Source of the DNA: Lucinisca nassula
Taxonomy: Eukaryota > Mollusca > Bivalvia > Lucinida > Lucinidae
Direction: 5' to 3'
Assembly (NCBI GenBank): GCA_963580285.1
Contig: OY757013.1
Span: 149,677,162-149,741,161 of the forward strand
DNA: 64,000 nucleotides
Part shown: in pieces, positions 18,868-61,083 of the stretch
Position numbering within the stretch: the stretch's first letter is position 1
Layout: the number at the start of each line of letters is the position of its first letter
Notes under the pieces: generated by a model
What the model was told of the DNA's origin: nothing
The model's input: the letters and a program-made list of their open reading frames with translations, nothing else
Databases searched by the model: none
Made by a program: the position numbers and the translations under genes

Positions 18868-20460
18868 TGAAACAAATTTCATCACGAAAACATGCCTATA
18901 TAATTTTGAACCCCACTTTTATAAAGTAAACTTGGGGTTTCCGGGGATATACCTTATTTTTATGCCCCCGCATCATATGATGCCGGGGGCATATAGTTTT
19001 TCAGTTTTCCGTACGTGCGTACATGTGTACGTCCGTCTGTACGTGTGTGTGTACGTACGTACGTACGTGATACTGTAACCTCAGGTTAAAGTTTTTGTAA
19101 CAGGTAGAGCCTGAACTTTTAGAACTAATATTTTCCTAACCATTTGATGGAACTGGTTCATCTTTGGTATGATGATAGATATAGGTCCAAGGTTTTATTA
19201 AGCAATACCCCCACCCATGCCTGTGACCTCAAGGTCAAGGTCACAGACTTAGAAATTTTCAATGTTAAAGACTCAGGTTAAGGTTTTTGTAACAGGTAGA
19301 CTTGAACATTTTAGAACTCATATTTTCCTAACCATTTGATGGAATTGGTTCATATTTGGTATGGTTATAGATATAGGTCCAAAGTTTTATTCAGCGATAC
19401 CCCCACCAATGCCCATGGCCTCAAGGTCAAGGTCATGGACTTAGAAATTTTCCATGTTAAAGACTCCATTTAAGGTATTTGTACCTGGTAGAACCTGAAC
19501 TTTTATGATGGCTTTGGTTCATATGATGATAGATATAGGTACAATGTTTTATTCAGCAATACCCCCACCCATGCCTATGACCTCAAGGTCAAGGTCACAG
19601 AATTAGACAATTTTAATGTGAAAGATTTTAAAGAGCTCAAATTTTCCAAACTATATTATGTATTTGACTTATGTATGCTATGATGATAGATACAGGTCCA
19701 AATGTTTATTTGGCAATACCCCCACTCATGCCTATGGCTTCAAGGTCAAGGTCACAGACTTAGAAGAAATTTTTAATTAGATATTTTAAGAGTTGATATT
19801 TTCCAAATCGTGCAATGGATTGAGTTGATATTTGGTATGATGTAAGATACCTGTCCATTTTATATAATCAAAACCCATGAGCTCAAGGTCAAGGTCATAG
19901 ACTTCAATATTTTTAATTATCCCCTCGCACAACATAGCTCTAGTGTCTATATTTCTTCACTGATTTCAATATAACTTCACACAAATGTTCCTTATGACAA
20001 TATCTCGAGCGAGTTTGACTTTCAAGGTCATGACCCCAAGGTCAAGGTCACTGGCTATTTTTAGAAAAACTTTGTCATTGCTCTAGCACTTACATTTTTT
20101 CACCAATTTCAATATAACTTCTCACAAATGTTCCTGATGACAAGGTCACACACTTAGAAAATTTTATTGCAACATGGATTTTCGGGGTGAGGCGGGGCCC
20201 TTGGCGGGGGCATCTGTGTCATCTGGACACATTTCTAGTTCTTATTTCTGCTCTAAAATATAGATCGATGAGGCGGTTCTAACGAGTGCCCACAATCTGC
20301 TCTAAAATATAGATTGTGGGTACTCGTTAGAACCGCCTCTATGATCTAATGAGTGCCCACAATCTATATTTTGAGCAGAAATAAGAAAAATATCACAATT
20401 TTTCATTTTTTTCGGCGATAAAGGTGGCAATGTATTTGTATAGGCGTGTTTGCGTAATGG
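18868..20460. repeat. M5 hairpin element split by a Pearl-type insertion
   Basis: 18868-18961 (gaaaacatgcctatataa...accttattttt) and 20241-20460 (cttatttctgctctaaaata...) are the two parts of one M5 copy. The intact copy at 21116-21389 shows they belong together across a T-run. Confidence 0.75.
18962..20240 (+). mobile_element. Pearl/Helentron-like element D
   Basis: 5' palindrome atgcccccgcatcatatgatg followed by ccgggggcat; then a gtacgt/cgtc simple repeat; then about five decaying core units of 140-190 bp, each with caaggtcaaggtca. The 3' arm copy is ggcgggggcat, followed by the hairpin gtgtcatctggacac and atttctag at a TT. Inserted in the T-run of an M5 copy. No protein-coding capacity. 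Helentron-type assignment is by structure only. Confidence 0.75.
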
Positions 20461-20559
20461 TTAAATTTTTTGGAGAATTCTCAAGGTGTCTGAATTTTTA
20501 GGATTTTTACAGTACTTAGACCCATATGCATGTGCAGTCTGATCAGTCTTCACAAGTTG

Positions 20560-20690
20560 CCAGATACACCACATCCTCTTTATAACACTATTGTTTGGGT
20601 CCAAAGCTGAAACTGTGTTATCAATATGTTGACAGTTTTGCAGTATTCAAACAAAAATGTGCAGATTATAAAGAAAAAGGACCGGTTATG
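20560..20690. repeat. M6 fragment
   Basis: Contains ataacactattgtttgggtcc, aaagctgaaactgtgtta and aaaatgtgcagattata, as in the full M6 copy at 43209. Confidence 0.5.
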
Positions 20691-20699
20691 GTCAATGTT

Positions 20700-20945
20700 C
20701 TATATGGGCCCCGTCAAGCAATTTCTGTACTTACCGCCTATGCGAGCAACGAAGGTTCAGGCGAGCCTGCGCATCCGTGCGGTCTCACCACAACCTTTCG
20801 ATGCTCGCTCATACAAGCAGTGAATCAAGAGGAACCTTCAGACAGAAAGCCATATCCCTGGCCCCTCTGAATGGCTGGGCATGTGCAGTTAAAAATTGTC
20901 ATGACGGAATGCTCGAAGACACAAATTCGCTTGGCGGGACTCATA
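20700..20945 (+). repeat. interspersed repeat with second copy at 58428-58665
   Basis: Both copies share gcctatgcgagca.cgaagg, 'ttcaggcgagcctgcgcatc', 'gaggaaccttcagacagaaa', 'gaatggctgggcatg' and 'gaatgctcgaagacacaaat'. About 240 bases, over 90% alike by eye. The overlapping reading frames are not conserved as protein. Class unknown. Confidence 0.75.
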
Positions 20946-21115
20946 TTATCTATATGGGTGGTTGGTTGAGGTGAAGGTGTCATGTATCTTGCATCACTGG
21001 CATCCAGCTGATGTTGGCTTACAGTTGGGTAAGTCTGTTCCTGCACTTCCATTCATTTTCCTCTTTCTCACCTGTCCTTCACTTTCTACTGGGAGACGAC
21101 ACAAAATGACCCATT

Positions 21116-21389
21116 ACGAAAACACGCCTATACAAGTACGTAGTAAAGTTTTCCGCCGAAAAAATGAAGATTTAATGATGAAAAAGTGTGATAGTTTTCT
21201 TATTTCTGCTCAAAAACAGATTGTGGGTACTCGATAGAACCGCCTCGACGAGGCGGTTCTATCGAGTACCCACAATCTATGTTTTTGAGCAGAAATAAGA
21301 AAAATAATGTTTACCCCTGAAAACCCCAGTTTTACTATATAAAAGTGGGTTTAAAGGGGGTCAAAATTATATAGGCCCGTTTTCATGAT
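21116..21389. repeat. hairpin element M5, full copy
   Basis: Inverted ends acgaaaacacgcctata and tataggcccgttttcat. The central palindrome 'gggtactcgatagaaccgcc' meets its complement at about 21245. aaataagaaaa blocks flank it. Confidence 0.8.
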
Positions 21390-21619
21390 GCCACAAGGGT
21401 TGGCGTGTCGTTTAACCCAGCACAACCAATCAACCTATATATATAATCTATGCATATTTGACAGAAGCCTTTGTGATGTAGTAGTTATGCTTCTTAGGTT
21501 ATGACTTTTGTATTAGTCTTTAAACCAAGGTCCCATCTCCACATGACGTTTAATTGTTGTTGGTGGGATGAAAGTGCAAACAAACAATACATTTTTGGGA
21601 ACCATCTCCAAACCGTGTT

Positions 21620-21965
21620 ATATCCAGAACAGTGTTTTATCATATGACATTGCATCTGAGAATGTAACAACACCATGTATTAAATTTGGTCATCCACTAC
21701 CAGATAAAATATTCAAATTAGTTAGATATGATGTGTAACGTTACATGTACAACATCTGCTAATGGTGGAATATTGATATATTTTGTAAAATATGTGTTTT
21801 AAATGTCATATGATAAATAGAATCTCACATTCATACTCATGTATTATTAAATGAGGAAAAGGGATAAAATGCTTGGCAAAGGCTCACATTTTATCTGTTT
21901 TCCTCAACTTGTTCAATAAATTCAATATTACATGAACACTCATGTAAGATCCTCTATAATAAAGA
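21620..21965. repeat. second copy of the ~400 bp repeat at 8290
   Basis: Shares gtaacgttacatgta, gaatattga, catatgataaatagaatc and aaaagggataaaatg in the same order. Confidence 0.6.
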
Positions 21966-22069
21966 GGTTTATGTGTACTTCTATAGTTATTGGTCTATCC
22001 AGCTAACAGCATGGCCAGCTGTTAGAAAGTACAGACTCATCTGATTTTTGTTGTACATTCTTTAAAGGG

Positions 22070-22305
22070 AATGGATACATCTTGCAGATTTTTTGCCTTT
22101 TTTCAAAGGGAGACATTTTTCAAGACTTCCTGTTTGCTTTTCTATAAGCCCTGTCCCACGGAAAAAGGGGTCTACTCTAAAAGGAAAGAATTTGCTCCTC
22201 AGGAGCAAATTCTTTCCTTTAAGAGTTGACCCCTATTAACATGGGAGACAAAAGTACTTTTGCAGGAGTTGCATCCACTGAGGGTGATCTATTCCCCTTA
22301 TGGGG
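22070..22305. repeat. MITE M9, full copy
   Basis: Ends aaagggaatggatacatctt and gatctattcccctta. The central palindrome is 'aggaaagaatttgctcctca' and its complement around 22199. Confidence 0.75.
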
Positions 22306-22471
22306 GTCAGATTTTGGTCTGTTCATACATTTGGCAAGCTGTCAATATTTGAGACCACCCAGGCTATTGTTCAAGTCCACACAAGCTGGATGTAGCTTTT
22401 GGGGGGAATTCTTGATTTGTTTGTTTGTATGTATGGCTGTGATCCAGCTCATTTATTTTATTTGTTTACAG

Positions 22472-22646
22472 TATATGGGTTGGGAACAAAGCAGCTAAGA
22501 CCTACTCCCTGCAGTCAGCAAGATGGTACTCCGCTGCATTCGCTCTGCGACAGAGGATGTTAAATTTTGTACAGAACTTTGAGTATTACATGATGTTTGA
22601 AGTAGTGGAACCAAACTGGCACCTATTCCAGACAAACATGGAGTCC
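22472..22646 (+). CDS. TUBGCP2: GCP2 exon e
   Basis: Acceptor tttgtttacag, donor gtaagtg. It encodes SIWVGNKAAKTYSLQSARW, then LRQRMLNFVQNFEYYMMFEV and a Trp-His block before the donor. These match the GCP2 gamma-tubulin-binding region almost residue for residue. The splice restores the frame from exon d and ends on a codon boundary. A palindromic minisatellite starts about 100 bases after the donor. Confidence 0.96.
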
Positions 22647-26090: not shown

Positions 26091-27854
26091 ATAATAGGGA
26101 TTATCAACTAAATGATAATCCCATTTATTTGGTGCGAACAAATTGAATGGACTGTCATTAATGTGTCATGATTGCAGCTTCAGGGTGGCTTGACCTCTCA
26201 TTATTTAGGTTTAAACAATGTCTGATCGCAATTTCAATCTCGTCATCCACCATGACAGTTGGTCCAGGTTACTGGACGCTTACACCGTGTTTGTTATGCC
26301 CCCAACTTTAAAAAAGTTGGGGGGCATATTGCTTCTGGCTTGTCCGTCCGTTCGTACGTCACGCTTTCTTGTGCATAGCATATCTTTAGAACCGTGTATG
26401 CTAGTGTTTTGAAATTTCATATATGGGTTCCTCATGAAAAAATAGTTGACCCGTATTTTTTTTCTTGTCCAAATTATCTCCCCTTCTTGAATTATTTCCC
26501 CTTTAATTAAATAACATAGAATTCTCGTTAGCAAGATATCTCAAAAAGTATTTGAGCTACAGCCTTGATATTTGGTATAGTGATTGGGACTAAGGAGGAG
26601 ATTACCTGATTAAATTTTCAACCAATTCTATAAAATTTTGTTAGAGTTATGGCCCTTTGTAATTTTTTGCCACTCAATTGTGTTGCTTTCTGGTGCATAG
26701 CATATCTTTAGAACCGTGTATGCTAGTGTTTTGAAATTTCATATATGGGTTCCTCATGAAAAAATAGTTGACCCGTATTTTTTTTCTTGTCCAAATTATC
26801 TCCCCTTCTTGAATTATTTCCCCTTTAATTAAATAACATAGAATTCTCGTTAGCAAGATATCTCAAAAAGTATTTGAGCTACAGCCTTGATATTTGGTAT
26901 AGTGATTGGGACTAAGGAGGAGACTACCTGATTAAATTTTCAACCAATTCGATAAAATTTTGTTAGAGTTATGGCCCTTTGTAATTTTTTGCTACTCAAT
27001 TGTGTTGCTTTCTGGTGCATAGCATATCTTCAGAACCGTGTATGCTAGTGTTTTGAAATTTATATATGAGTTCCTCATGAAAAAATAGTTGACCCGTATT
27101 TTTTTTCTTGTCCAAATTATCTCCCCTTCTTGAATTATTTCCCCTTTAATTAAAAAACATAGAATTCTCGTTAGCAAGATATCTCAAAAAGTATTTAAGC
27201 TACAGCCCTGATACATGGTATAGTGATTGGGACTAAGGAGGAGACTACCTGATTAAATTTTCAACCAATTCTATAAAATTTTGTTAAAGTTATGGCCCTT
27301 TATAATTTTTTGCCTCTCAATTGTGTTTCTTTCTGGTGCATAGCATATCTTCAGAACCGTGTATGCTAGTGTTTTGAAATTTCATATATGGGTTCCTCAT
27401 GAAAAAATAGTTGACCAGTATTTTTTTTCTTGTCCAAATTATCTCCCCTTCTTGAATTATTTCCCCTTTAATTAAATAACATAGAATTCTCGTTTAGGAG
27501 TTTCATTGATGATACTTGGTACATGCTTGCAACTAGGAGTGAAATTTTTATGCAGGCATCCATGTTTGACCTTGACCTAGATTTCATGGTTTGGTGACAG
27601 GCGCAACATAGCCTTCTGGGGAATTCTTGTATGTTTTTGAGTCTTTAACAATATTTGTTGAATATTTTGCCATCTAGGGACAAGCAAAGGTTGGGGGCAT
27701 TGTGTTTTACAAACACCATTTCTAGTTATTCAGCAGTCAAGCGTCTTAAGGGCCAAACTATGGTTTGGCGTCTTGCGCATGCTCAGGGAAACCTTCATTT
27801 TCCGTTTTCAAATCCAGCAAAAGAAAGTTGTATTTTTTAAGAGGAATCTAAAAC
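26091..27854 (+). repeat. split direct repeat A1 (with inserted element)
   Basis: Matches A2 from ataatagggattatc to aggaatctaaaac, with only scattered changes (e.g. a/g near 26233). It is broken at 26295/27728 by a Pearl-type element absent from A2. Confidence 0.9.
26296..27727 (+). mobile_element. Pearl/Helentron-like element E, boundaries proven
   Basis: 5' palindrome atgcccccaacttt / aaagttggggggcat; three and a third core units of exactly 322, 322 and 321 bp (ggtgcatagcatatct at 26369, 26691, 27013, 27334); a different last block shared with 7488-7640. The 3' arm copy is ttgggggcat, followed by the hairpin gtgttttacaaacac and catttctag. The empty site in A2 at 32191-32192 reads gtgtttg-tt-attcag, so the insert is 1432 bp at TT, without other target duplication. 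Confidence 0.9.
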
Positions 27855-30786: not shown

Positions 30787-31991
30787 GCGGAATTCAGCAT
30801 TCGATAGGGGGGACGCTTTGCTTAGACAGCTGTTTGGTTGTAATGAAACTTTACGCCTTGAGCCTAGATTCCAAATACTGGTTGCTGGGAGCAAGGCTGA
30901 AGTTTGTTTCTTTCAGGACTTCTACTTGGACTGGGTGGCATCTCCTTCATGGAAGTGGTTCGCCATAACCTGAAGATTTGTTCTTGAGCCTAGATTCCGG
31001 GTACTGGTTGCTGGGAGCAGAGCTGAGGCTTGTTTCTTTCAGAACTTCTTGAACTGGGTGGCGTCTCCTTCATGGAAATGGTTCGCCATAACCTGAGGAT
31101 GTGTTCCCCCCAGGGTCATACTAAAAATTTCTAAATTGCAAGTCATAAGTAAGGTTCGCACGTGCAGCCGGGGCTATTTGAATATATGTAATATGGGATG
31201 GATTACATGGTATGCATTGCATAATGCAGAAGATGGTATGGAATGCGTGTCATGGAATGCAGTTTGGAGTGCACATTACGGAGTGCTCACTGTCAAGATT
31301 AGTTGGAGTGCATAAATTGGAGTGCACAAGAGTTGGGATAGAGTGGAGCGTACAAATAGGATGTGCGCAATATCTGGATTGTTACATAATTTGGAGCGTA
31401 CAGTCAGGATGTGCGCAATATTTAGAATGCTAAAAAATTGTAAAGCATACAAACAAGATGTATGCAATATTTGGAATACTTGGAGCGTACAAATAGGATG
31501 TGCGCAATATTTGGATTTTTACAAAATTTGGAGCGTACAAACAGGATGTGCGCAATATTTGGAATGTTAAAAAATTGTGGAGCGTACAAACAGGATGTAC
31601 GCAATATTTGGAATACTCTGTTACAAAATTTGGAGCGTACTATAGGAAGTGCGCAATTTTTGGAATGTTACAAAATCTTGGAGCACACATTTGGAGTGTG
31701 CGCATATTTTGGAATACTCAAAATTCAAAATTGGACCACAATATTTTGAGTGCAAACAAATTAATAATTTGGTGCCCGTTTTCGTGCGAGCAAGGTTATA
31801 TGCTGTCACTGCGTCCCCCCTTCGACCTGAATCTACTCGGTCTCCATATACTGCCAGATATTGTAGAGACTGAAAGTTAGACAACAAAACACATTATTGA
31901 AATAATGTTTTATTAACTATGTGAAAAAGGAGATAAATAAAAGTAGTTGTATCTATATATATTTTGTTGTATGAGTGAGCATCCTTAATAA
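30787..31991 (+). repeat. split direct repeat B1
   Basis: Nearly identical to B2. It holds a ~115 bp internal duplication (gagcctagattcc..gtactggttgctgggagca), then an array of about seven ~49 bp units with ggagcgtacaaacaggatgt and gcgcaatatttgga (31344-31680). It ends gagcatccttaataa. Reading frames in it (up to 126 codons) come from the array. Confidence 0.9.
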
Positions 31992-32866: not shown

Positions 32867-34072
32867 GCGGAATTCAGCATTCTATGGGGGGGACGCTTTG
32901 CTTAGACAGCTGTTTGGTTGTAATGAAACTTTACGCCTTGAGCCTACATTCCAAATACTGGTTGCTGGGAGCAAGGCTGAAGTTTGTTTCTTTCAGGACT
33001 TCTACTTGGACTGGGTGGCATCTCCTTCATGGAAGTGGTTCGCCATAACCTGAAGATTTGTTCTTGAGCCTAGATTCCGGGTACTGGTTGCTGGGAGCAG
33101 AGCTGAGGCTTGTTTCTTTCAGAACTTCTTGAACTGGGTGGCGTCTCCTTCATGGAAATGGTTCACCATAACCTGAGGATGTGTTCCCCCCAGGGTCATA
33201 CTAAAAAATTTCTAAATTGCAAGTCATAAGTAAGGTTCGCACGTGCAGCCGGGGCTATTTGAATATATGTAATATGGGATGGATTACATGGTATGCATTG
33301 CATAATGCAGAAGATGGTATGGAATGCGTGTCATGGAATGCAGTTTGGAGTGCACATTACGGAGTGCTCACTGTCAAGATTAGTTGGAGTGCATAAATTG
33401 GAGTGCACAAGAGTTGGGATAGAGTGGAGCGTACAAATAGGATGTGCGCAATATCTGGATTGTTACATAATTTGGAGCGTACAGTCAGGATGTGCGCAAT
33501 ATTTAGAATGCTAAAAAATTGTAAAGCATACAAACAAGATGTATGCAATATTTGGAATACTTGGAGCGTACAAATAGGATGTGCGCAATATTTGGATTTT
33601 TACAAAATTTGGAGCGTACAAACAGGATGTGCGCAATATTTGGAATGTTAAAAAATTGTGGAGCGTACAAACAGGATGTACGCAATATTTGGAATACTCT
33701 GTTACAAAATTTGGAGCGTACTATAGGAAGTGCGCAATTTTTGGAATGTTACAAAATCTTGGAGCACACATTTGGAGTGTGCGCATATTTTGGAATACTC
33801 AAAATTCAAAATTGGACCACAATATTTTGAGTGCAAACAAATTAATAATTTGGTGCCCGTTTTCGTGCGAGCAAGGTTATATGCTGTCACTGCGTCCCCC
33901 CTTCGACCTGAATCTACTCGGTCTCCATATACTGCCAGATATTGTAGAGACTGAAAGTTAGACAACAAAACACATTATTGAAATAATGTTTTATTAACTA
34001 TGTGAAAAAGGAGATAAATAAAAGTAGTTGTATCTATATATATTTTGTTGTATGAGTGAGCATCCTTAATAA
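32867..34072 (+). repeat. split direct repeat B2
   Basis: Copy of B1 shifted by 2080-2081 bases. I see only a handful of differences in 1.2 kb (one extra A at about 33207, a few substitutions near 32882-32946 and at 33164). Confidence 0.9.
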
Positions 34073-34399: not shown

Positions 34400-35800
34400 A
34401 CCTTAATCCTCTGTTTCTTGGAATACCTGGTATAATGTTGACCATTTTTGCATAAACTTGTCAAATTTACTATTTATGATGCTTGTGTATCTGTCATTTT
34501 GGAATTTTCGTTTTAGATAAATTTTAAAATTATTAAAGTTCAAATTATTAATAAAAAATTTTGTTTTGTATATGAAATATTTTGCTAACACAAGTATATA
34601 ATTCAGCAAATTGTTTTCTTGTAAAGCTTGTCTAGAAAATATTACATTTTTCAGATTTAGTTGAAGTGTAAGGTTTGTTTGTGTTTGTAACCATGTTTTT
34701 AGGGATGACCAGAAGTTTTTAACCTTATTGCAATGTATGAATAGATGAGCTATTGTTTCAGATTCCTGTTCACAAAAAGAGCACCTGTCATTATTTGTTT
34801 TTGTTTATATTATATAAGAATGATTTCGTGACTAGTATATAGTTATTAATTTTATATTGGAACTCTTGTAATTTCACCTCTTTCAAGTCCTTAAGTAAAC
34901 TATTATAACTGTTCCACTCGTCCTGTTTTATGTTACCTACTATATTTGACCATTTATTTGAAGGCAAAGTTGCTTCTTTATTTCCCGTTATTATATCGTA
35001 GAAAACTCTACTCCCTTTTTTATCTTTGGTAAGATATTTTATGTAATAGTTTCTTGATACATTTGTTTTAATGTTTTGACACAAAAGGCTATTATCATTT
35101 ATCTTATTTTTCCATTCCCTTGGGATTTTTCTCAGAAGAGACAAATAATCTAAGAAAGTACCATTAACATTATATACATTTTTAAAATCATCAAAATTAT
35201 ATAGCTGTCCTGTTCCATCAATTAAATCTATTATTTGTCTTACTCCTTTATCGTACCATTCTTTTATAAAAAATCTGTTACCGTGATTTAGCATAGAATT
35301 GAACCAAATGGGAGAATCTAGTATATCTTCTAAACTTTCAATTTTTACATGTTTGCAGAAGGCAGACCAACTTTTTAAAAGATCTTTCCAGAATGGGTTT
35401 TGTATTTCACCTACTTTGGGGTTTGCAAAGCCATCTCCCATACTGTAGATTAAACTAATATTAAAATTTGACATTTTATTCCAGGTGCTTTGTTCTTGTA
35501 AGATATGTCTTCTCAGCCAAGTTATTTTCTATGCATGAATGAAATTTTCTACACGCAACATTTTCAAGCCACCATCTGCCATGTTTTTAATAATATTTTT
35601 TCTTTTGATCCTGTCTGGTCCAGAGTTCCAAAGGAACTTATAAAATAATTTATTAAGATTTTGTATTAGCTCACTTGGAGGATGCGGCAAAGCTATGAAT
35701 AAATGAACAAACTTTGAAATAGCTAGTGATTTTATTATTGTTATCTTACCTTGCAGAGTGAGTCTTCTTTTTGACCATGCCTCTATGAGTTTACTTAATT
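34400..35800 (-). pseudogene. LINE C-terminal region
   Basis: After a one-base frameshift it reads LIEAWSKRRLTLQGKITIIK, then FIALPHPPSELIQNLN, a TAG in place of Leu in FIHA-KITWLRRH, and 227 open codons from MSNFN. After another frameshift comes DRCSFCEQESETIAHLFIHC, a CCHC-like zinc motif. It ends YQVFQETED and a stop at about 34403. Confidence 0.85.
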
Positions 35801-37148
35801 ATAGCCCCGCTTTGAAAAAGTGGGGGCTATATTGGATTTGGCTTGTCCAGAATTCCGTTTGTAATTTGTCCGGAATTCTGTCTGTCTGTCTGTAATATTT
35901 GATAGTGGGTACCTTGTTACTGCAACTCCTCTTACAGTTCTCGGTCAATCCTTTTGAAACTTTACAGTTGTTTTCATATAGGTCTGAAGATGTGCATATT
36001 CTTTTTTCATTATCCTTAAATAATTTTTTTCACTTATTTCACCTTTTTTAACTTAGACTATTTTTGAGATCTACTAATGTTAAAATGTATAGGGAGTAGC
36101 TACCTTGTTACCGCAACTTCTCTTACAGTTCTAGGTCAATCCTTTTGAAACTTTACAGGTGTTTTCATATAGGTCTGAAGATATGCATATTCTTTTTTCA
36201 TTATCCTTAAATAATTTTTTTCACTTATTTCACCTTTTTTAACTTAGACAATTTTTGAGATCTACTAATGTTAAAATGTATAGGGAGTAGCTACCTTGTT
36301 ACCGCAACTCCTCTTACAGTTCTAGGTCAATCCTTTTGAAACTTTACAGGTGTTTTCATATAGGTCTGAAGATGTGCATATTCTTTTTTCATTATCCTTA
36401 AATAATTTTTTTCACTTATTTCACCTTTTTTAACTTAGACAATTTTTGAGATCTACTAATGTTAAAATGTATAGGGAGTAGCTACCTTGTTACCACAACT
36501 CCTCTTACAGTTCTAGGTCAATCCTTTTGAAACTTTACAGGTGTTTTCATATGGGTCTGAAGATGTGCATATTCTTTTTTCATCATCCTTAAATAATGTT
36601 TTTCACTTATTTCACCTTTTTTAACTTAGACAATTTTTGAGATCTACTAATGTTAAAATGTATAGGGAGTAGCTACCTTGTGACCACAACTCCTTTTACA
36701 GTTCTAGGTCAATCCTTTTGAAACTTTACAGGTGTTTTCATATAGGTCTGAAGATGTGCATATTCTTTTTTCATTATCCTTAAATAAATTTTTTTCACTT
36801 ATTTCACCTTTTTTAACTTAGACAATTTTTGAGATCTACTAATGTTAAAATGTATAGGGAGTTGCTACCTTGTGATCGCAACTCCTCTTACAGTTCTAGT
36901 CAATCCTTTTGAAATTTAACAGGTGTTTTCATATAGGTCTGAAGATGTGCATGTGCTTTTTTCATTATCCAAAACCTATTTTTTAACTTATACTGTTTTT
37001 CAGATCTAATAACGCGAAAAGTCTATAAGGCGCAGGTACCTTGTTAGGGATTTAACCCTCTCACAAGTCTTTACCTTTAATTCATGAGTCTTTCTCCTCT
37101 GACAGGGCTATAGCGGGGCTATAGTCAGATCCTCTGACAGTTCTAGTT
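35801..37148 (+). mobile_element. Pearl/Helentron-like element C
   Basis: 5' palindrome atagccccgctttg / aaagtgggggctat; ctgt repeats; core units of 191 bp (accttgtta.cgcaactcct at 35911, 36102, 36293, 36484, 36675, 36867, 37038); 3' arm gcggggctata; hairpin gtcagatcctctgac; end agttctag at a T-run in the LINE. The units match those of the element at 48541. Confidence 0.82.
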
Positions 37149-37324: not shown

Positions 37325-38775
37325 ATACCCCCGGCATACGAAGTATGTCATTATACCCCAGGCATACGAAGTATGTCAGGGGGTATATAGTTTTCGTCTT
37401 TCCGTCCGTTCGTCCGTTCGTTGGTTCGTTCGTATGTTCGTTTGTTCGTTCGTTCGTTCGTTGGTTGGTTCGTTCGTTCGTTAGTTCGTTCGTACGTTCG
37501 TTCGTCAACCTTTACGTCAAAGTTTTGCGTTAAACCTTTTTGATTGATCATATCTCTGTAACCACAGGTTGGATTCTCTTCATATTTGGTACAGGATATC
37601 TCTATAGCATTACCTTTCATATGGAATATCTAAGCCCCTGGGTGGGTTGTCTGTCTGTCCGTCTGTCTGTTCATCTACTTTTACGTCAAAGTTTTGTGTT
37701 AAACCTTTTTCATTGCTGATATCTCTGTAACCACATGTTAGATTCTCTTCATATTTGGTATAGGATATCTCTATAGCATTACCTTTCATATGGAATATCT
37801 AAGCCCCTGGGTCAAGCCCCTGGGTGGGCTGTCTGTCTGTCTGTTCATCTACTTTTACCTCAAAGTTTTGTGTTAAACCTTTTTCATTGCTGATATCTCT
37901 GTAACCACATGTTAGATTCTCTTCATATTTGGTATAGGATATCTCTATAGCATTACCTTTCATATGGAATATCTAAGCCCCTGGGTCAAGCCCCTGGGTG
38001 GGCTGTCTGTCTGTCTGTTCATCTAATTTTACGTCAAAGTTTTGTGTTAAACCTTTTTCATTGCTGATATCTCTGTAACCACATGTTAGATTCTCTTCAT
38101 ATTTGGTATAGGATATCTCTATAGCATTACCTTTCATATGGAATATCTAAGCCCCTGGGTGGGCTGTCTGTCTGTCTGTCTGTTCATCTAATTTTACGTC
38201 AAAGTTTTGTGTTAAACCTTTTTCATTGCTGATATCTCTGTAACCACATGTTAGATTCTCTTCATGTTTGGTAAAGGATATCTCTATAGCATTACCTTTC
38301 ATATGGAATATCTAAGCCTCTGGGTCAAGCCCCTGGGTGGGCTGTCTGTCTGTCTGTTCATCTACTTTTACGTCAAAGTTTTGTGTTAAACCTTTTTCAT
38401 GGCTGATATCTCTGTAACCACATCTTAGATTCTCTTCATGTTTGATAAATGATTTCATGATGCATGTCCATTCCCCCACCCATGGTGACCTTGACCTCAA
38501 GGTCATGGTGACCTTGACCTCAAGGTCACGGACTTAGAAATTTTACATTTGGTTAAAGTTTTATGTCAAAATTTATAGATGCCTGTGTGTTCTATTTGAT
38601 GCCCTCACTCCCTTGGTCCATTTAGAAATTTTATGTTTGGTTTAGCTTTTACAAGCACATTTATAGATTCTTATAGCTTCTTGACTTCATTCATATTACA
38701 TACAAGCTCGAAAGATATATCAGAGGGTGATGCTGGCCGGGGGTATACGTGACCCACTGGTCACTTTCTCTAGTT
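37325..38775 (+). mobile_element. Pearl/Helentron-like element B
   Basis: 5' palindrome tacccccggcatacgaagta, partly doubled; a (TTCG)n-type microsatellite at 37395-37505; six core units of 165-174 bp (tatctctgtaaccaca at 37551, 37720, 37894, 38068, 38233, 38407); two gaccttgacctcaaggtca palindromes; 3' arm ccgggggtata; hairpin gtgacccactggtcac; end tttctctag at a T-run in the LINE. Confidence 0.82.
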
Positions 38776-39940
38776 TTTAACCCTGACATGTGGTAAAAAG
38801 TGTTAAGTGTCTCCAAAGATTTCCTTAATGAATGTTCTGTTCCATCTAAAAATAACTGTGTATCATCAGCATACTGACTCAGCTTAAATTGATTTCTATT
38901 CATTACAATGCCCCCTATTGTGTTGTTTTGTCTGATCATGTGCCCAAGAACCTCTGCACACAAAATAAAAATATATGGAGAGATAGGGTCCCCCTGTCTG
39001 CAGCCCCTTTGTAGGCAGAAATACTCAGTCATATGCCCATTTTGTAAAATACATGATTCAGCTCCAGACTGAAAAAGTGAAATCCATTTTTTAAAGGATG
39101 GACCGAAGTTGAAAAATTCACAGGTTTTTTTAATGAATTTCCATGACACCGAGTCAAATGCCTGCTGGAAGTATATTGATAAAAGTAATCCGGGTATTTC
39201 TTGTTGTTTAGTTTCAAAGAGAATATCGTATATCAGACGGATATTTTCCCCTATAAATCTTCCGGCTATGAACCCTTTTTGGTCTTAGTGTATGATTTTG
39301 TTCAAAACTGTCTTAAGCCGGGAGGCAATAACCGTGGATGCTAGTTTATATACAACGTTAAGCAATGATATAGATCGCCAATTTGTTAAGTAGAAAGGAG
39401 ATTTATTAGGCTTAGGAAGGCAAGTAATTATACCCTGTTTTTGTGTAATTGATAAAGATCCTGTCTTATATGCAAAATTTAATGATTTTAATATGAAACT
39501 ATTTAAGTCAGTCCAGAAAAATTTAAAAAACTCTGCTGTGAAGCCATCACTACCTGGAGTTTTTGAGTTTTTCATATTTTTTAAGGCTTCAGACAGCTCT
39601 GTATATGTTATTTCTCCCTCAAGCATCCTGGCATCATAATCCGAAAGTTTGCGTGGGTTTTCTCCTACTACATTTTCAATTTTTGTGTCATCTGTTACTA
39701 TCTTTTCAGAATATAAATCTTTATAATATTCCTTTTGGGTGTTTAAAATTTCATTCATTTCTGTACATTCATGACCGTCTTCCTCTATTAATTTAGTTAT
39801 TACTTTATTTGTGAAATTTCGTTTTTCTAAATTAAAAAGGTAGCTCGTTGGCTTTTCCCCTAATTCTTCATATCTACATTTTGATCTTAACATAACTCCC
39901 TCATTGACAGTTTTTCTTATTTCATACAGTCTTTCTTTTT
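38776..39940 (-). pseudogene. LINE reverse transcriptase, main part
   Basis: Reads KERLYEIRKTVNEGV, YEELGEKPTSYLFNLEKRN, SDGFTAEFFKFFW, LPKPNKSPFYLTNWRSISLL, then a stop after IIH at about 39284. It goes on DQKGFIAGRFIGENIRLIYD, LSIYFQQAFDSVSW, LQRGCRQGDPISPYIFILC and QYADDTQLFLDG. The YADD box is intact, but the motif A Asp (usually IDFQ.AFD) is Tyr. The frame is cut at HMSGLK by an insertion. Confidence 0.88.
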
Positions 39941-40401
39941 ATACCCCCGCAAACGAAGTTTGAAGGGGGTATATAGGAGTCAGCTTGTCGTCTGTCGTCG
40001 GTCCGTTACAAAAAACTTTAACATTGCTCATAACTTCCTTATTCTTTGACCGATTTCTTTAATATTCACACACCACACACCTTGCCACTAGTACTTAAGA
40101 TTGATATACACAAACCTGACCTTGACCTTTACGTTGACCTTCCTCAAGGTCAAATACTTGTAAAAATTTGTCTGTCGTCGGTCCGTTACAAAAAACTTTA
40201 ACATTGCTCATAACTTCCTTATTCTTTGACCGATTTCTTTAATATTCACACACCACACTCCTTGCCACTAGTACTTAAGATTATACACAAACCTGACCTT
40301 GACCTTTACGCTGACCTTCCTCAAGGTCAAATACTTGTAAAAATTTGTCTGACAACGCATGCGGGGGTATAATTGGCGCCCGTTAGGCGGCAGCTCTAGT
40401 T
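39941..40401 (+). mobile_element. Pearl/Helentron-like element A
   Basis: 5' palindrome atacccccgcaaacgaag with ttgaagggggtata; two 180 bp core units starting tctgtcgtcggtccgttac (39991 and 40171); 3' arm copy gcgggggtata; a hairpin with cgcc/ggcg arms; end cagctctag at a T-run. It splits the LINE codons between EEK and KER. Confidence 0.82.
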
Positions 40402-42299: not shown

Positions 42300-42404
42300 T
42301 ATACCACACCACACGATAGTGGTGTATTATGATATACTTTAGAATGTATGTCTGTCCATCCGTCTGTCAGTCCATCTGTCTGTCCATCCATCTGCATAAC
42401 TTGA

Positions 42405-48540: not shown

Positions 48541-49635
48541 TGTCCCCTGCCTTTTTTGAAGAAAAGCGAAGGGACATAGTATTCGGCTTTCCGTGGTGCG
48601 TGGTTCGTGGTGCGGGGTGCGTGGTTCCGAGCTTGTAGTAGGTACCTTGTGAGCGCAACTCCTTCTACAGTTTTATACCGATCCTTCTGAAATTTTGCAG
48701 GTGTCTTTATCATGGTTTGAAGTTGTGCATGTGCTTTTTTCAGAATTCTTGAATTAATTTGTTTCACTTTTTTCACATTTGTAACTTAGACTTTTTTTGC
48801 ATGCTTCCGAATTCATAGTAGGTACCTTGTGAGCGCAACTCCTCCTACAGTTTTATACCAATCCTTCTGAAATTTTACAGGTGTCTTTATCATGGTTTGA
48901 AGTTGTGCATATGCTTTTTTCAGAATTCTTTAATTAATTTTTTTCACTTTTTTACATTTTTAACTTGGACTTTTTTCATGCATCAATTCTATGAAAGAGT
49001 ATAATGTAGTAGGTACCTTGTGAGCGCAACTGCTCCTACAGTTTTATACTGATCCTTCTGAAATTTTACAGGTGTCTTTATCATGGTTTGAAGTTGTGCA
49101 TATGCTTTTTTCAGAATTCTTTAATTAATTTTTTTTCACTTTTTTCACAAATTTACATTAGACTTTTTTCATGCATCAATTCTATGAAACAGTATAATGT
49201 AGTAGGTACCTTGTGAGCGCAACTCCTCCTACAGTTTATTGCCACTCCTTCCAAAACTTAAAAGTTGGTTGAATTATGGTTTGAAGATATGTATTTGCTT
49301 TTTACAGAATCTCAAAATAATTCTTTTCACTTTTTTTCACATTTTTAACTTAGAGTTTTTTTTGCCCATCTATAATATGAAACTGGATATGTAGTAGATA
49401 CATTGTGAGTGCAACAGTTACTCCTCCTACAGTTTAAAACTGATCCTTCAGAATCTTTACAGGTGTTTTGATATGGACTGAAATGTGCATGTGCCTTTTA
49501 CAGAATCCTTTAATTATTGTTTTTCACTTTCCGCATTAAGTGATACCAATGGTTGCCTGGTTAACTTACTTATTTTTTAACCTCACAAATGAAAATAAGG
49601 CGGGGGACATAAATTCTCTTTGGAATTTACTTGTT
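48541..49635 (+). mobile_element. Pearl/Helentron-like element F
   Basis: 5' palindrome tgtcccctgccttttttgaa with aagcgaagggaca; a gtgcgtggttcg repeat; five ~191 bp core units (accttgtgagcgcaactcct at 48644, 48824, 49015, 49209, 49400); 3' arm ggcgggggaca; hairpin aaattctctttggaattt; end acttg at TT. The core matches element C but the ends do not. Confidence 0.78.
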
Positions 49636-52671: not shown

Positions 52672-52884
52672 TTAACCCTTGTCCTGCTGAATATTTATAT
52701 ATGCCACACCCACTCCCCATTATCAACCAATCAGATTACTTGATGCAAATTATTGCAACAAATTCTCAATCTGAATGGCAAACAATGTAGATCCTGATCA
52801 GATGGCTTCGTCAGAAGCCATCTGATCTGGATCTACATTGTTTCAAAGATAAGGCATATACGGGATTAGCAGGACAAGGGTTAA
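52672..52884. repeat. TTAA MITE M1b
   Basis: ttaacccttgtcctgctg ... agcaggacaagggttaa. Hairpin gatcagatggcttcgtcaga and complement. Confidence 0.85.
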
Positions 52885-53052
52885 TTATCAGGTCGCTGAG
52901 GAAAGAGTTGTAATTTACAGGTGCATGCGAGTTCTGAAATTAATGGGAGTTTTGTCTTTAACATGGTTTGAATGATAAATTCATTTAGTTTAGATAATTG
53001 AGGCAGCACACATGTAAAGGCACACAACGTGACGTGTATGGCGACTAAACAC

Positions 53053-53284
53053 TTAACCCATTTTAGACTCGAAACCTCAAAACAGATCATTGGCAAACAG
53101 TGGAGGCACTGATCAGATGCTGCAGAAATGTGGCATCTGCTCAGGGCCTTCACTTTTTTGCAGAAAAATTCAACCATTTTCTAAAAAAAATGTTTCTAAA
53201 CATAACTGAACCTGGCGCCTCTAAATTTTGAAAGGGACTCCTGTTTATAAGGGGGAAGATTCCATTGAGCACAAAATGGGTGAG
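53053..53284. repeat. MITE M2, decayed right end
   Basis: ttaacccattttagactcga ... gagcacaaaatgggtgag. Module at 53094-53160. Confidence 0.7.
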
Positions 53285-53554
53285 TTCATCCTGGACACAA
53301 GTGCCACCACATCAGTCATTTTTCTTCTTACATTGCTTCATGATCCACATACCACCAATTTGACCAGCCAAGACTCAGACCAGACTAAACATCTGTGCAG
53401 CCTGATCCGAGTCTTTCCTTCTCCTGCATGCCAGCTTGCAATTCTTCTAGTGCCAGGGCTCATGATATGTAGCTTATTACTGAGCCATGCTTGTTCAACA
53501 GTAAGAAATACCATTATGGTTTAGCATGCCTTTAGGAAGTATCCATCTCTGGGC

Positions 53555-53645
53555 ACCAGTTGTCACGCGTTGTAGTGGTTAAGCTATTCTTCTCATAAAC
53601 CAGGGGTCATGGATTTGATTCTGGGCTTCTCCAGATTGTCAGGTG
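53555..53645 (+). repeat. tRNA-like SINE head
   Basis: cgcgttgtagtggttaagct with catggatttgattctgggct. Same family as the inverted repeat at 51595-51765. Confidence 0.5.
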
Positions 53646-53655
53646 AATCTTTGAA

Positions 53656-53884
53656 TTAACCCATTTTGTACTGGAAACCCCAAAACGGGTACCCTGGCAA
53701 ACAGTGCAGGCCCAGATCAGATGACGCAGAACACGGCATCTGATCAGGGCCTACACATTCTGCAAAAAGTTCAGCTATTTTCCAAATGAATTTTAAAGAT
53801 AACCCAACCTGTTCCTCCTAAAGTTTGAAATGGACTCCTGCTATATATAAGGAGGAAAATTCCATTTGGTTCCAAAAGGGTTAA
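53656..53884. repeat. TTAA MITE M2
   Basis: ttaacccattttgtactgg ... ttggttccaaaagggttaa. Module at 53697-53765. Confidence 0.8.
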
Positions 53885-53984
53885 GGTCCCATCTCCATAT
53901 GACCTTAGTTGTTGGTTGGACGAAAAACTCCAACACTACCCTCTGAGATAAATTATTATATGCGTTAACCTGAAATATTTGCTA

Positions 53985-54140
53985 CCTTCATTTTCTTTCT
54001 TCTGCTGTTGTCTGTCAGCTACTGGCAACAGAATATGTACTGTACTGGTTAACCTGGAAAAATGGGGTTAGTTTATCTGACTGGCTGGACATGATTGTAA
54101 TAGTGTTGGCTGGTCTGTAAAGCAACACAAATAAACAAAT
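53985..54140 (+). repeat. SINE S1 fragment
   Basis: ctttcttctgctgttgtctg, gtactgtactggttaacctg and a caaataaacaaataaa tail. Confidence 0.55.
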
Positions 54141-54417
54141 AAATTTAATGCCACAGACATGACTTCGACCAATACTTCTTACATCAGTGAACTTGGAAGA
54201 GTACCATAAATAAATGAATGTAGAAAAGTTAGGTTCTGAACTGTCTGTAAACAATTTGTGGGAATGTGATGTTTGAGACACACTCTACTCGTGGAAAGAC
54301 CACTCTTCAATTTTCATTTCTCTAAACCAAGACAACCTTGATTACATATGACTGGCACATTGCTGAAGATGCTTCTCTGTTTGAGCCAGGCTTAGTAAAG
54401 CCTCAAGATAATCTTGT

Positions 54418-54768
54418 ACAGTCAAACTTCAATGGCTCGAACACCTTTGGGATCACCAAAATCTGTCCGAGACAGTGTAGTTCGAGCCACTGATGGTTAC
54501 TGCCAGGAGGCATAACGAGATACTTTTAGGCATCTTTTCGGCGTTCTATAATGAAAATGTATGCTGTGTACTCATTAGAATCGCCTCATCGAGGCGATTC
54601 TAACGAGTACACACAGCATACATTTGCAAGATAAAAGCCTAAAATCTCCTTAATTATCCCCCACTATTTCTTATGTAGAGGATTTCGCTAGGGGCTCAAG
54701 AATGGGTTCAACACATCCATGGTAAACAAGCCATTGGTGTTCGAGCCATCAAAGTTCTACTGTATATT
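54418..54768. repeat. MITE with ggctcgaacacc termini
   Basis: Ends acagtcaaacttcaatggct and ccatcaaagttctactgta, TA-flanked. The inner 'gtgtactcattagaatcgcc' palindrome at 54568-54617 is related to M5. Confidence 0.7.
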
Positions 54769-54876
54769 CATAATTTTTTCAGACCCTTCTCTTCCTGTTC
54801 TTAGCCCAGCTGCTATAACAGACTCACTAACAGTAAAGACTGATCAAACTGGGCATATGTCCAGGCTGATCTGAGT

Positions 54877-55088
54877 CTCAACCCATTTTGTACTGGAAAA
54901 GCCCAAATGTGTACCCTGGCAAACAGTGCAGGTCCAGATCAGATGCCGCAGAATGTGGCATCTGATCGGGGCTTATACTGTTTGCAAAATTTTCAGTCAA
55001 TTTCCAACTAGTTCTTGAAGATAACACAACCTGACACCCCTAAATTTTGAAATGGACTCCTGCAGTATCTAAGGTGGAAGATTGGTTA
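54877..55088. repeat. MITE M2, worn ends
   Basis: caacccattttgtactgg, module 'gcaaacagtgcaggtccaga', gaaatggactcctgc, ttaa at 55085. Confidence 0.65.
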
Positions 55089-56432: not shown

Positions 56433-56735
56433 GGAGCGTGATAGCTCAGTGGTTAGTGCACTTGCCTCTGATGCTAGAGGTCCTGGGTTCGATCCCCGGC
56501 AGCGGTGTGAAAATTTTGTGTCCTAACACGCTCCACTGGCATCATTTGCAGGGATGAATGTCATAAAGTGCACCGTCCTTCGGATCAGGATGTTAACTGG
56601 AGGCCCCCTGTGCAGGGAGAACCATCCCATGTGCAGGTTAAAGAACCCTACCATAATGACATGATTGCTGTGTAGGCTTTCATCCTGCAACACTGGAGTG
56701 TATGAAATATACACTGTCTGTGTCCCCAACCGAGG
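56433..56735 (+). repeat. tRNA-headed SINE with mollusc-type body
   Basis: Head gtgatagctcagtggttagt with a perfect B-box-like gggttcgatcccc. Body cccatgtgcaggttaaagaa resembles the conserved central domain of mollusc SINEs as I remember it. The inverted tcctaacacgctccactgg after the head complements its start. Confidence 0.7.
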
Positions 56736-57412: not shown

Positions 57413-57649
57413 AGAGTGTAACTATAGTGACAAACTATTTCGGACTTTAGCATGTGCTATTTTATGCAAATTAGCTGGTTCAGTTATTATATGCAATAAA
57501 AATTTAGTATCTAACATTCCCTACAAAGTGATACCTGAATGATGAGTGTATCTTGTTTGGTTTAAAAGTTAGTAGCACTTTTGGACACCCATAAGGTCCC
57601 TTTTTCCCTGACAGGTCACATATTAGAAAGCACCTCAATAAGTTGATTT

Positions 57650-57872
57650 TTAACCCTTGTCCTGCTGAGCCCGGATATGCCTTATTTTCCAAACAATGAA
57701 GATCCAGATCAGATGGCTTCAGACGAAGCCATCTGAAGCCATCTGATCAGGATCTACATTGTTTGCCATTCAGATTGAGAATTTGTTGCAGTAATTTGCA
57801 TCAAGTAATCTGATTGGTTGATAATCGGTAGTGGGTGTGGCAGATTAAAATATTCAGCAGGACAAGGGTTAA
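57650..57872. repeat. TTAA MITE M1b
   Basis: ttaacccttgtcctgctg ... cagcaggacaagggttaa. The hairpin has a repeated gaagccatctg. Confidence 0.85.
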
Positions 57873-58129
57873 AAGTACCCACAACATGTTTAGAAGAAAA
57901 ATAAGGAATATTATCCATTAATTCTAAAAAGTACCCACAGCATGTATATGAAGAGTAATAAAGAATATTGTCCATTGACAATCATAATGATGATGATTTC
58001 GTGTTCGAGGCACAAAACATTTATTATCAGCGTTACTCAATCTTTCTTGCACATTACCGTATTTACAGCACAAAAATTCTACAGTTACTCTTGGTGCAAT
58101 GCAGGCTTCTCTCATTTTCACTGTCATAC

Positions 58130-58230
58130 TATTTTTAGCTCAGCAGGAGCTCCAGGTAAACTTATTGTATTGCCTGTTGTCTGTCGTCCGTCTGTCAGCA
58201 TCTCTTCCTGAATCCTAAATCAGACAAAGC
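58130..58230 (+). repeat. truncated Pearl-type 5' end
   Basis: ttttagctcagcaggagctc, then gtctgtcgtccgtctgtcag, like the start of the elements at 59190 and 62456. No core or 3' end. Confidence 0.4.
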
Positions 58231-58427
58231 TGTTCAGAAACTTAATCAGAAGCATCAAGATAACATGCAGATTCAGAATTGCCAAGACAATGTGATCTGA
58301 TAGACAAAATGACTACCAAGGTACAATTTTAATATATGATAAGCCTTATCCAGGTGAGTGATTCTGGTCTTATTCTTGTTTTAATAGTTTTCCTAGCTGA
58401 GAGAACAATCATAGCTCCAACATCACT

Positions 58428-58665
58428 TAGGCCCTGTCAAGCGATTTTGGTACTTATCGCCTATGCGAGCAGCGAAGGTTCAGGCGAGCCTGCGCATCCG
58501 CGCAGTCTCGCCAGAACCTTTGCTGCTCGCCCATACAAGCAGTGAATCAAGAGGAACCTTCAGACAGAAAGCCATATCCCTGGCCCCTCGGAATGGCTGG
58601 GCATGCGCAGTTAAAATTTGTCATGACGGAATGCTCGAAGACACAAATTCGCTTGGCGGGGCTCA
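58428..58665 (+). repeat. second copy of the repeat at 20700
   Basis: Same block order (gaggaaccttcagacagaaa, gaatgctcgaagacacaaat). About 240 bases; the sequences diverge outside. Confidence 0.75.
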
Positions 58666-59024
58666 CTTGACATATTACAAAAACTTGGATCATTAAATAC
58701 GGCACATACTGGAATGCTTATATTTTTTCTGAAAATTGTGAGTATCCCTCACATTTTTTTCAGCAAAAATTTTCACCATATTAAGTTTTGTACTTGCTAG
58801 AATATACTTTGTTTGTCGCAATAAAAGCTCTACAGAGCTTATGTTACTTGTTTCGGATATGCAACGTTAAATAAAGCTTCTTAATCTTTATCTTTATCTA
58901 AGGCTATTCCAGCAAGAATACACAATACAGATTTATAAAGATGAATAAGAAAACAGGACTCATTTTCTTTACAGAATTGATGTTCTTTTAATAGACAATA
59001 GTTATCTTCTCTTTTTTTCTTCAG

Positions 59025-59149
59025 GTTCAACAACCTCATGGCCTACCTCATTTACCAGTCTGCGACCAGACAATGTCCGCTACGTCCCAGGAGTCCACTA
59101 CCGCCGACCAGGCCCTCCTTCTACTTCATCAGCTTCTGGGTCAACATGA
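59025..59149 (+). CDS. TUBGCP2: GCP2 terminal exon j and stop
   Basis: The acceptor is ctctttttttcttcag. Two bases complete the Gly codon from exon i, then 40 codons and TGA at 59147-59149. The product is Ser/Thr/Pro-rich with a central RPDNVRYVPGVHYRRPG stretch, in keeping with the unconserved tail of GCP2. The splice phase is right and the frame closes at once, but homology is weak. A mobile element begins 40 bases after the stop. Confidence 0.8.
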
Positions 59150-59189
59150 CACACCAGCAGTTATCTTCCTTGAGGAGGATTTAATTTTT
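59150..59189 (+). other. start of GCP2 3' UTR, before a mobile element
   Basis: Only 40 bases separate the TGA from a Helentron-like element. No AATAAA lies in them, so the poly(A) site must lie inside or beyond the element. An AATAAA is present near 61375 but nothing ties it to this gene. Confidence 0.4.
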
Positions 59190-61083
59190 AGCTCACCTGT
59201 CACGTTGTGACAAGGTGAGCTTTTGTGATCACTTTTCGTCCGTCGTCCGTCGTCAGTGCGTGCGTGCGTGTGTGCGTAAACAATTTCTTCAAACGACATC
59301 TCCTCCTAAACCACTGATCGGATTTTGACCAAACTTCACAGGGATGATCCTTAGGTGGTCCCCTTTCAAAGTTGTTCAAATGGTTCCGGTCTGTTGCACA
59401 TCTGGGTCACAGGAGCCAAAAATAGATTTTTTCACCGAAAACTTAGAAAATCTTCTTCTCTGAAACCACAAGGCCCAGGTCTTTGATATTTGGTGTGAAG
59501 CTTCACCTAGTGGACCTCTACCAAGATTGTTCAAATTATAGCTCTAGGGCCAAAAATGCCCCCGCCCCGGGGGCCTTTGGTTTTACATAGGCTTCTACAG
59601 GGAAAATCTTTAAAAATCTTCGTCTCTGAAACCAAAAGGCCCAGGTCTTTGATATTTGGTATGAAGCTTCATCTAGTGGACCTCTACCAAGATTGTTCAA
59701 ATTATGGCCCTTGGGCCAGAAATGCCCCCGCCCCGGGGGCCTTTGGGTTTACATAGGCTTATATAGGGAAAATCTTTAAAAATCTTCTTCTCTGAAACCA
59801 CACGGCCCAGGTCTTTGATATTTGGTGTGAAGCTTCACCTAGTGGACCTCTACCAAGATTGTTCAAATTATAGCTCTAGGGCTAAAAATGCCCCCACCCC
59901 GGGGGCCTTTGGTTTTACATAGGCTTATACAGGGAAAATCTTTAAAAATCTTCTTCTCTGAAACCAAAAGGCCCAGGTCTTTGATATTTGGTATGAAGCT
60001 TCATCTAGTGGACCTCTACCAAGATTGTTCAAATTATGGCCCTTGGGCCAGAAATGCCCCCGCCCCGGGGGCCTTTGGGTTTACATAGGCTTATATAGGG
60101 AAAATCTTTAAAAATCTTCTTCTCTGAAACCACAAGGCCCAGGTCTTTGATATTTGGTGTGAAGCTTCACCTAGTGGACCTCTACCAAGATTGTTCAAAT
60201 TATAGCCCTAGGGCCAAAAATGCCCCGGCCCCGGGGGCCTTTGGTTTTACATAGGCTTTTACAGGGAAAATCTTTAAAAATCTTCTTCTCTGAAACCACA
60301 AGGCCCAGGTCTTTGATATTTGGTGTGAAGCTTCATCTAGCCGACCTCTACCAAGATTGTTCAAATTATGGCCCCTGGACCTGAAATGCCCCCGCCCCGG
60401 GGGCCTTTGGGTTTACATAGGCTTATATAGGGAAAATCTTTAAAATTCTTCTTCTCTTAAACCACATGGCCCAGGTCTTTGATATTTGGTGTGAAGCTTC
60501 ACCTAGTGGATCTCTACCAAGATTGTTCAAATTATAGCCCTAGGGCCAAAAATGCCCCCGCCCCGGGGGCCTTTGGTTTTACATAGGCTTATACAGGGAA
60601 AATCTTTAAAAATCTTCTTCTCTGAAACCACAAGGCCCAGGTCTTTGATATTTGGTGTGAAGCTTCATCTAGTGGACCTCTACCAATATTGTTCAAATTA
60701 TAGCCCTTGGGCTAAAAATGTCCCCGCCCTGGGCGCCTTTGGTTTTAAATAGGCTTATACAGGGAAAATCTTTAAAAATCTTCTTCTCTGAAACTGCAAG
60801 GCTCTGAATTTAATATTTGGTGTGAAGCTTCATCTAGTGGACCTCTACCAAGATTGTTCAAATTATAGCCCTGGAGCCAAAAATGCCCCCATCCCCGGGG
60901 CCCTTTGGTTTTTTATAGGCTTATATAGGGAAAATATTTAAAAAACTTCTTCTCTGAAACCACAAGGCTCAGGTCTTTGATATTTGGTATGAAGCTTCAA
61001 CTAGTTATAGCCCTTAGGCTAAGAATGTTCTAGAGACACTTATTCTCAGGTGAGCGATTCAGGGCCCTCTGGGCCCTCTTGTT
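59190..61083 (+). mobile_element. Pearl/Helentron-like element G in the GCP2 3' flank
   Basis: 5' palindrome agctcacctgtcac / gtgacaaggtgagct, cgtc repeats, then about ten core units of exactly 166 bp (gggaaaatcttt... at 59600, 59766, 59932, 60098, 60264, 60430, 60596, 60762, 60928). Neighbouring units alternate in type over much of the array, giving a 332 bp higher-order repeat. 3' arm caggtgagc, hairpin agggccctctgggccct, end cttg at TT. Reading frames of 66 codons repeat at 332 bp and are not genes. Confidence 0.82.

Follow-up and report, generated by a model that had tools for sequence, protein, structure and literature searches.

Co-varying arms and a candidate pairing exchange at the ends of non-autonomous Helentrons in Lucinisca nassula

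Elements of the window and their ends

The window analysed here, a stretch of 64,000 nucleotides from the bivalve Lucinisca nassula (assembly GCA_963580285.1, contig OY757013.1, positions 149,677,162 to 149,741,161), carries eight elements on its forward strand, A to H, which are HINEs, non-autonomous Helentrons of the Helitron2 group. A first-pass annotation, made from the sequence alone, had given A to G three arms, a small 3' hairpin, CTAG or CTTG, and TT. The elements were read at the positions it proposed, their ends were folded and the coordinates rechecked, and all seven of A to G could be so read, with the starts of A and C set one base earlier, at the T. From 5' to 3', the whole plan in A to G comprises a T, an outer arm, an apical stem-loop, an inner arm, a microsatellite-like stretch, tandem repeats, a third arm, a small hairpin, and CTAG or CTTG with TT after it.

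Element A (39940-40399) has its outer arm at 39940-39951, inner arm at 39965-39973, third arm at 40360-40371, 3' hairpin at 40375-40391 and CTAG at 40396-40399. In the same order, these parts lie at 37325-37336, 37379-37387, 38736-38747, 38749-38764 and 38770-38773 (CTAG) in element B (37325-38773); at 35800-35811, 35822-35831, 37112-37123, 37124-37138 (hairpin by eye) and 37143-37146 (CTAG) in element C (35800-37146); and at 18962-18973, 18983-18992, 20204-20213, 20215-20231 and 20235-20238 (CTAG) in element D (18962-20238). Element E (26296-27725) has them at 26296-26307, 26316-26327, 27690-27700, about 27702-27716 and 27722-27725 (CTAG), element F (48541-49633) at 48541-48552, 48568-48576, 49597-49609, 49610-49629 and 49630-49633 (CTTG), and element G (59190-61081) at 59190-59201, 59212-59221, 61045-61055, 61061-61077 and 61078-61081 (CTTG). 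Only the 5' half of element H had been described; its outer arm (62456-62467) and inner arm (about 62478-62486) lie in the window (62456-64000), beyond which the element runs. The missing 3' end has since been located by complementarity to the H outer arm, in 2.2 kb fetched past the window (L032), where the third arm, CTCAGGTGAGC, ends 3145 bases from the start and is followed by a hairpin and CTTG|T.

In A to G, a 5' asymmetric terminal inverted repeat (5'-ATIR) lies 0-2 bp from the 5' end together with a 5' hairpin, and the end of the third arm lies 23-28 bases from the end of the element. The spacing between the 3' hairpin and CTAG or CTTG, given earlier as 4-9 bases, is corrected by the folds to 0-5 (C by eye). 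C, D and F have tandem repeats with periods of 191-193; the period is about 174 in B, 166 in G and 322 in E. The 5' end of B is partly duplicated, with hairpin starts in tandem at 37325-37390 and the second start at 37351/37352. Bases 1203-1334 of E are about 75% identical to the end of a further family, J, and a J-type 3' end, with third arm, hairpin and CTTG, lies within E at 27596-27629 of the window. The sequence TATACCACACCACACGATAGTGGTGTAT at 42300-42327 resembles a further 5' hairpin and leads into a microsatellite-like stretch; no convincing third arm was found for it.

The annotation had allowed that the true ends might lie outside the boundaries drawn; for A they do not. All eight fetched copies of A are preceded by T, followed by TT and set in unrelated flanks, and eight places in G-type repeats of the window give ungapped alignments of 72-75 bases (90.7-94.5% identity) with the joined flanks of one copy (L006). 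For family A, these eight copies and the one empty site indicate insertion between T and T without further target duplication, the empty site leaving a single T ambiguous. A CTAG end taken alone would suit the CTRR of a canonical Helitron (Helitron1: 5'-TC, A/T insertion, no 5' hairpin), an assignment that is ruled out by starts such as TATACC, ATGCCC and AGCTC, by the T before and T after, and by the presence of a 5' hairpin. A reading of the ends as simple palindromes was also tested and dropped.

Co-variation of the three arms

Further families were sought in 17 random 10-kb pieces of the 2.93-Gb genome. A plan detector was run on these and on the window, with three order-2 Markov shuffles as control; it replaced a cruder detector with exact 9-mers, most of whose 180 rows were spurious. 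A to G score 24.0-28.5, with B scored from the second copy of its 5' end (37352), and the shuffles reach at most 23.0. Under strict settings the random pieces gave two more full copies of C and no other family, and a relaxed search gave J, L and N with all three arms, the 3' end of L being reached only after a further fetch. K and M, for which the relaxed search found a 5' half and no third arm, were excluded from all family counts. The third arms of H, L and N were found by complementarity, and a hairpin and CTTG|T come after each of them. Of six elements taken from a hairpin pattern, four had all three arms and were added as P, Q, R and T (L051, L052, L053 and L055, the last stopping just before the terminal TTG); the other two (L050, L054) showed no credible 3' end over 2.3 kb and were discarded. 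The families tested are therefore 15, all from the same genome: A to H, J, L, N, P, Q, R and T.

Across these families, 160 of 180 positions match when the outer arm is compared with the reverse complement of the third arm. Each third arm had been selected for the closest fit in the region before the 3' end, and the control therefore repeated that selection for every swapped partner: with swaps over all families, none of 20,000 reaches 160 (mean 113.3, maximum 140), and with swaps confined to look-alike groups, one of 20,000 does so (mean 143.0, maximum 161). At arm positions 2-10 there are 133 Watson-Crick pairs, two T.G pairs and no mismatch among 135, absolute figures that the best-match choice tends to raise, and eight of the nine positions show two or more Watson-Crick types. 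Only 15 of 3000 random 50-base pieces of element body reach 10/12, where the 15 own ends score 9-12. By computed energy, the own third arm ranks best of the 15 in 13 families.

The inner arm behaves differently. Without gaps it agrees with the outer arm at 129 of 180 positions; with one bulged base allowed, agreement rises to 188 of 210, a value that no within-group swap of 20,000 reaches. The third arm thus matches the outer arm straight through and the inner arm usually needs one extra base. Because both the outer-third match and the bulged outer-inner match survive the swap controls, the three-way co-variation is real across families, with the inner arm offset by a base. The earlier statement that three arms vary together under a fixed plan therefore stands across families, although the arms are not equivalent.

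The same relation is seen where homologous bodies carry changed arms, as in the pairs C/F, G/N, H/L and G/L. C and F have bodies with 73% identity across 914 bases, and the arm ends read GGGCTATA (inner) and GGGGCTATA (third) in C and GGGACATA (inner) and GGGGGACATA (third) in F; the outer arm differs correspondingly. When the positions of hairpin-pattern and CTTG-end matches were joined into 21 same-copy element pairs, most of them of type L and with two 3' matches used twice, the 7 bases after GCTC agreed at all seven positions in 13, at six in 7 and at four in 1. In type L, the third arm tracks the outer ACCAGAG, and the inner arm reads CCGGGG. In summary, the arms differ between families and remain complementary within each.

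Matches to these ends are abundant in the genome, with 36,626 to the TAGCTC-GAA-GAGCT pattern against 77 for its reversed form, 14,885 to ACCCCC-GAA-GGGGGT against 95, 17,044 to the CTTG-type 3' end against 239 for the control, and 5,020 to the J apical hairpin against none. A near-perfect palindrome around TGACCTTGAAAGGTCA, probably a different repeat, makes up 25 of 100 of the ACCCCC..GAA..GGGGGT matches listed on C1.

The extra base was counted in two superfamilies, AGCTC and ACCCCC, that have no arm sequence in common, again among the matches listed. With a pattern that permitted an inner-outer difference of -4 to +5, the inner segment is exactly one base longer in 68 of 71 AGCTC hairpins with an apical stem of at least 3 bp; these come from the first 100 matches, the 29 with shorter stems having been set aside (19 of them also +1). 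The 100 ACCCCC matches leave 69 qualifying hairpins once 25 TGACCTTGA palindromes and six weak apical stems are removed, and in these the difference is +1 in 40, +2 in 16, +3 or +4 in 3, 0 in 8 and negative in 2. Among the families, an extra inner base betters the outer-inner fit in 13 of 15. Shared ancestry inside each superfamily accounts for part of this recurrence. The open-access literature searched, figures and supplements aside, did not yield a description of the extra base, which is possibly new.

A pairing exchange and its rivals

The outer arm is able to pair with the inner arm or with the third arm, the latter duplex being unbroken over about 9-12 base pairs. We consider it rather probable that the arms are kept matched to preserve an exchange between these pairings, from the 5' hairpin, usually with its extra inner base, to the unbroken outer-third duplex. 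In such a model the Helentron Rep, an HUH protein, would nick between the T and the hairpin and peel a strand from the 5' end; the hairpin would form in the peeled single strand and mark the left end. Unwinding at the right end may then free the third arm, which would take the outer arm from the bulged hairpin, an exchange that the bulge would render downhill. The outer-third pairing would join the two ends beside the 3' hairpin and CTAG/CTTG|T, and the joined ends would set the second cleavage point and the closure of the circle. This model is the published Helitron2 switch idea (PMC3627910) made more concrete.

The folded 5' hairpins, from 11 families (that of N decayed, that of B from its second 5' copy only), include loops of cGAAg in A, B, H and L and tGAAa in C, counts that leave out P, Q, R and T as drawn from a pattern fixing the GAA loop. 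According to the available text of PMC4686876, GNA-type loops, to which cGAAg and tGAAa belong, make very stable DNA mini-hairpins, and such loops fit a structure that acts as single-stranded DNA. A more specific proposal, and one we hold only tentatively, is that the extra base (one, sometimes two), often under a cGAAg mini-hairpin loop, serves as a mark for recognition and destabilisation that does not depend on sequence, is retained by unrelated families and enables the perfect third arm to dislodge the inner arm as rolling-circle unwinding finishes. For the Helentron Rep, the extra base would then play the part that an extrahelical hairpin base has for the IS200/IS605 TnpA.

In 11 of 11 families, computed energies favour the outer-third duplex (-13.2 to -17.9 kcal/mol) over the 5' hairpin (-4.9 to -13.6 kcal/mol); they omit the penalty for a loop of 0.4-3 kb, which is one of several points that weigh against the exchange. 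The margin in G is small (-13.2 against -12.9 kcal/mol), and as separate strands outer and inner pair more strongly than outer and third in D and G. The gapless 12-base outer-inner match is insignificant within look-alike groups (3023 of 20,000 swaps). The extra base is +1 in only 40 of the 69 listed ACCCCC hairpins, is absent in H and in two of four C copies (L009 and L020, with four instead of five G), and is uninformative in N. The detector score alone is no proof, because probable non-elements reach the range of A to G, one in L020 (9122-8933, minus strand) scoring 29.0 and one at 52796-55011 of the window 26.0. Single copies of J also change one arm without the others, which the annotation had set against its own reading: in 100 J hairpins among the matches listed, 83 of 87 changed pairs are altered on one side only, and of 15 copies, several of which share flanks and are thus non-independent, the third arm is readable in 12, with two matched outer and third changes, two consensus-like and eight discordant. 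Co-variation inside family J is thus weak. Such one-sided changes are literally of the kind named, but they are expected of dead copies and decide nothing.

Matched arms could also arise if the outer and third arms represent, in opposite orientations, one site that the family's own Rep reads as sequence, like the terminal inverted repeats of cut-and-paste transposons, with families differing as their transposases differ. The nearly constant proximal GCTC beside variable distal bases in the look-alike group, as if a protein read part of the arm, and the many Helentron proteins of the genome are consistent with such recognition. By itself, however, it predicts neither that hairpins of unrelated sequence should have one base more on the inner strand nor that the apical stem should co-vary separately from the third arm, as is seen in AGCTC hairpins, and we regard it as unlikely, though a serious contender. 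Less probable still is homogenisation without selection, in which one arm is rewritten from another, by mismatch repair or template switching, when the two anneal in the course of rolling-circle replication. The arms are matched in every family studied, and L041 and L048 have matching non-consensus outer and third arms, as this would require; local template switching should nevertheless perfect the near hairpin before the distant third arm, whereas it is the third arm that matches better and the hairpin that retains the extra base, and eight of the 12 readable J copies are discordant. That the complementarity is incidental, GC-rich ends of one ancestral family merely looking alike, draws on the CCCCC or GCTC cores that several arms have in common; it is refuted by the within-group permutations (1 of 20,000 for the third arm, 0 of 20,000 for the inner arm with a bulge) and by the reversed-pattern controls (36,626 to 77 and 14,885 to 95), and we give it next to no credence. 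The pairing exchange is accordingly preferred. That pairing rather than sequence is the selected trait, as the annotation had suggested, is one possible reading of the matched arms, which a site-reading transposase or an arm-copying repair would also yield.

Helentron proteins, whose presence favours the exchange, are plentiful. Helitron_like_N gave 2091 candidates, and all 150 that were scored passed the cut-off; one frame of 2499 aa contains Helitron_like_N, REP_ORF2-G2P (HUH) and PIF1, with a C-terminal endonuclease match below Pfam's cut-off. Helentron-type protein copies, for example at C1:162622200-162641500 (L031, L028, L026, L027), have open frames of about 2500 aa and carry Herpes_teg_N-like and DUF6570 domains. 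Two of these copies are 99.85% identical over 4101 bases, with 99.86% identity over 2167 bases in a second comparison, and they were therefore recently active; copies taken as autonomous lie near C1:162.6 Mb and C1:173.1 Mb. An autonomous element with ends of the A-H type was not found, the ends of the protein copies lying beyond the 19 kb fetched, and this counts against the exchange.

Elsewhere in the window, 30921-31991 and 33001-34072 form a direct duplication, 99.8% identical over 1072 bases and about 2.08 kb apart, which may extend further. A tRNA-Leu-like sequence (ARAGORN) and a weak tRNA match (Rfam, 32.4 bits) lie at 1603-1683 and 56442-56499, perhaps as parts of a short interspersed element or pseudogene.

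With more than 36,000 matches to one 5' hairpin pattern, Helentron-type ends are abundant and the definition of start and stop is a candidate for testing. The many natural arm variants that keep pairing make the switch proposal of 2013 testable, the extra inner base is a single simple feature to alter, and a detection rule can be offered: to seek a third arm that exactly complements the outer arm.

Comparison with known elements

Pearl elements have structured ends that enclose central repeats of about 160 bases, and the present elements, with repeat periods of 151-193 and 322, are likened to them by description only. Pearl elements of bivalves are named in the accessible text of Vojvoda Zeljko et al. 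2020 (PMC7492417), which describes Cg_HINE of Crassostrea gigas with the parts found here: a 5' subterminal inverted repeat (subTIR), a complementary inverted repeat 1-12 bp away, a microsatellite, tandem repeats, a 3' subTIR and a palindrome. Its 11 elements show element-specific changes in these parts, which that text lists without the test of co-variation that is made here. DINE-1/HINE and Helentrons (PMC4067079, as far as its available text goes) likewise have subTIRs, an inverted repeat nested at the 5' end, a 3' palindrome and T-rich insertion; there an autonomous Rep/helicase/endonuclease partner with common ends was shown, whereas here the proteins were found but not the ends of their elements. 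In Fusarium FoHeli (PMC5148889, available text), ATIRs and 5' hairpins with a GAA loop (TCAGCC GAA GGCTG AC) resemble those of A, B, H and L, but the short hairpin as written has no extra base and the elements end in ATTTT rather than CTAG or CTTG.

The closest system is Helitron2 of Bao and Jurka 2013 (PMC3627910). Its accessible text describes a 5'-ATIR, 0-2 bp from the end and hairpin-forming, a 3'-ATIR about 20-30 bp from the 3' end before a hairpin, a T-rich target, and compensatory base mutations in two related elements, all as here, and proposes that replication is given its end point when the 5'-ATIR pairs with the 3'-ATIR and the 5' hairpin is thereby lost. The first-pass annotation was right that these are non-autonomous elements of Helentron type with a fixed plan and co-variation beyond chance, but its claim that the three-way co-variation was undescribed falls, and the switch that it suggested is the one proposed there, both having been printed in 2013. 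The compensatory changes reported there concern one pair of elements; here 15 families are put to permutation tests, and the excess length of the inner strand is tallied. The three-arm plan, the compensatory changes and the pairing switch were therefore already known, and to these the genome of L. nassula adds numbers and the recurring extra base.

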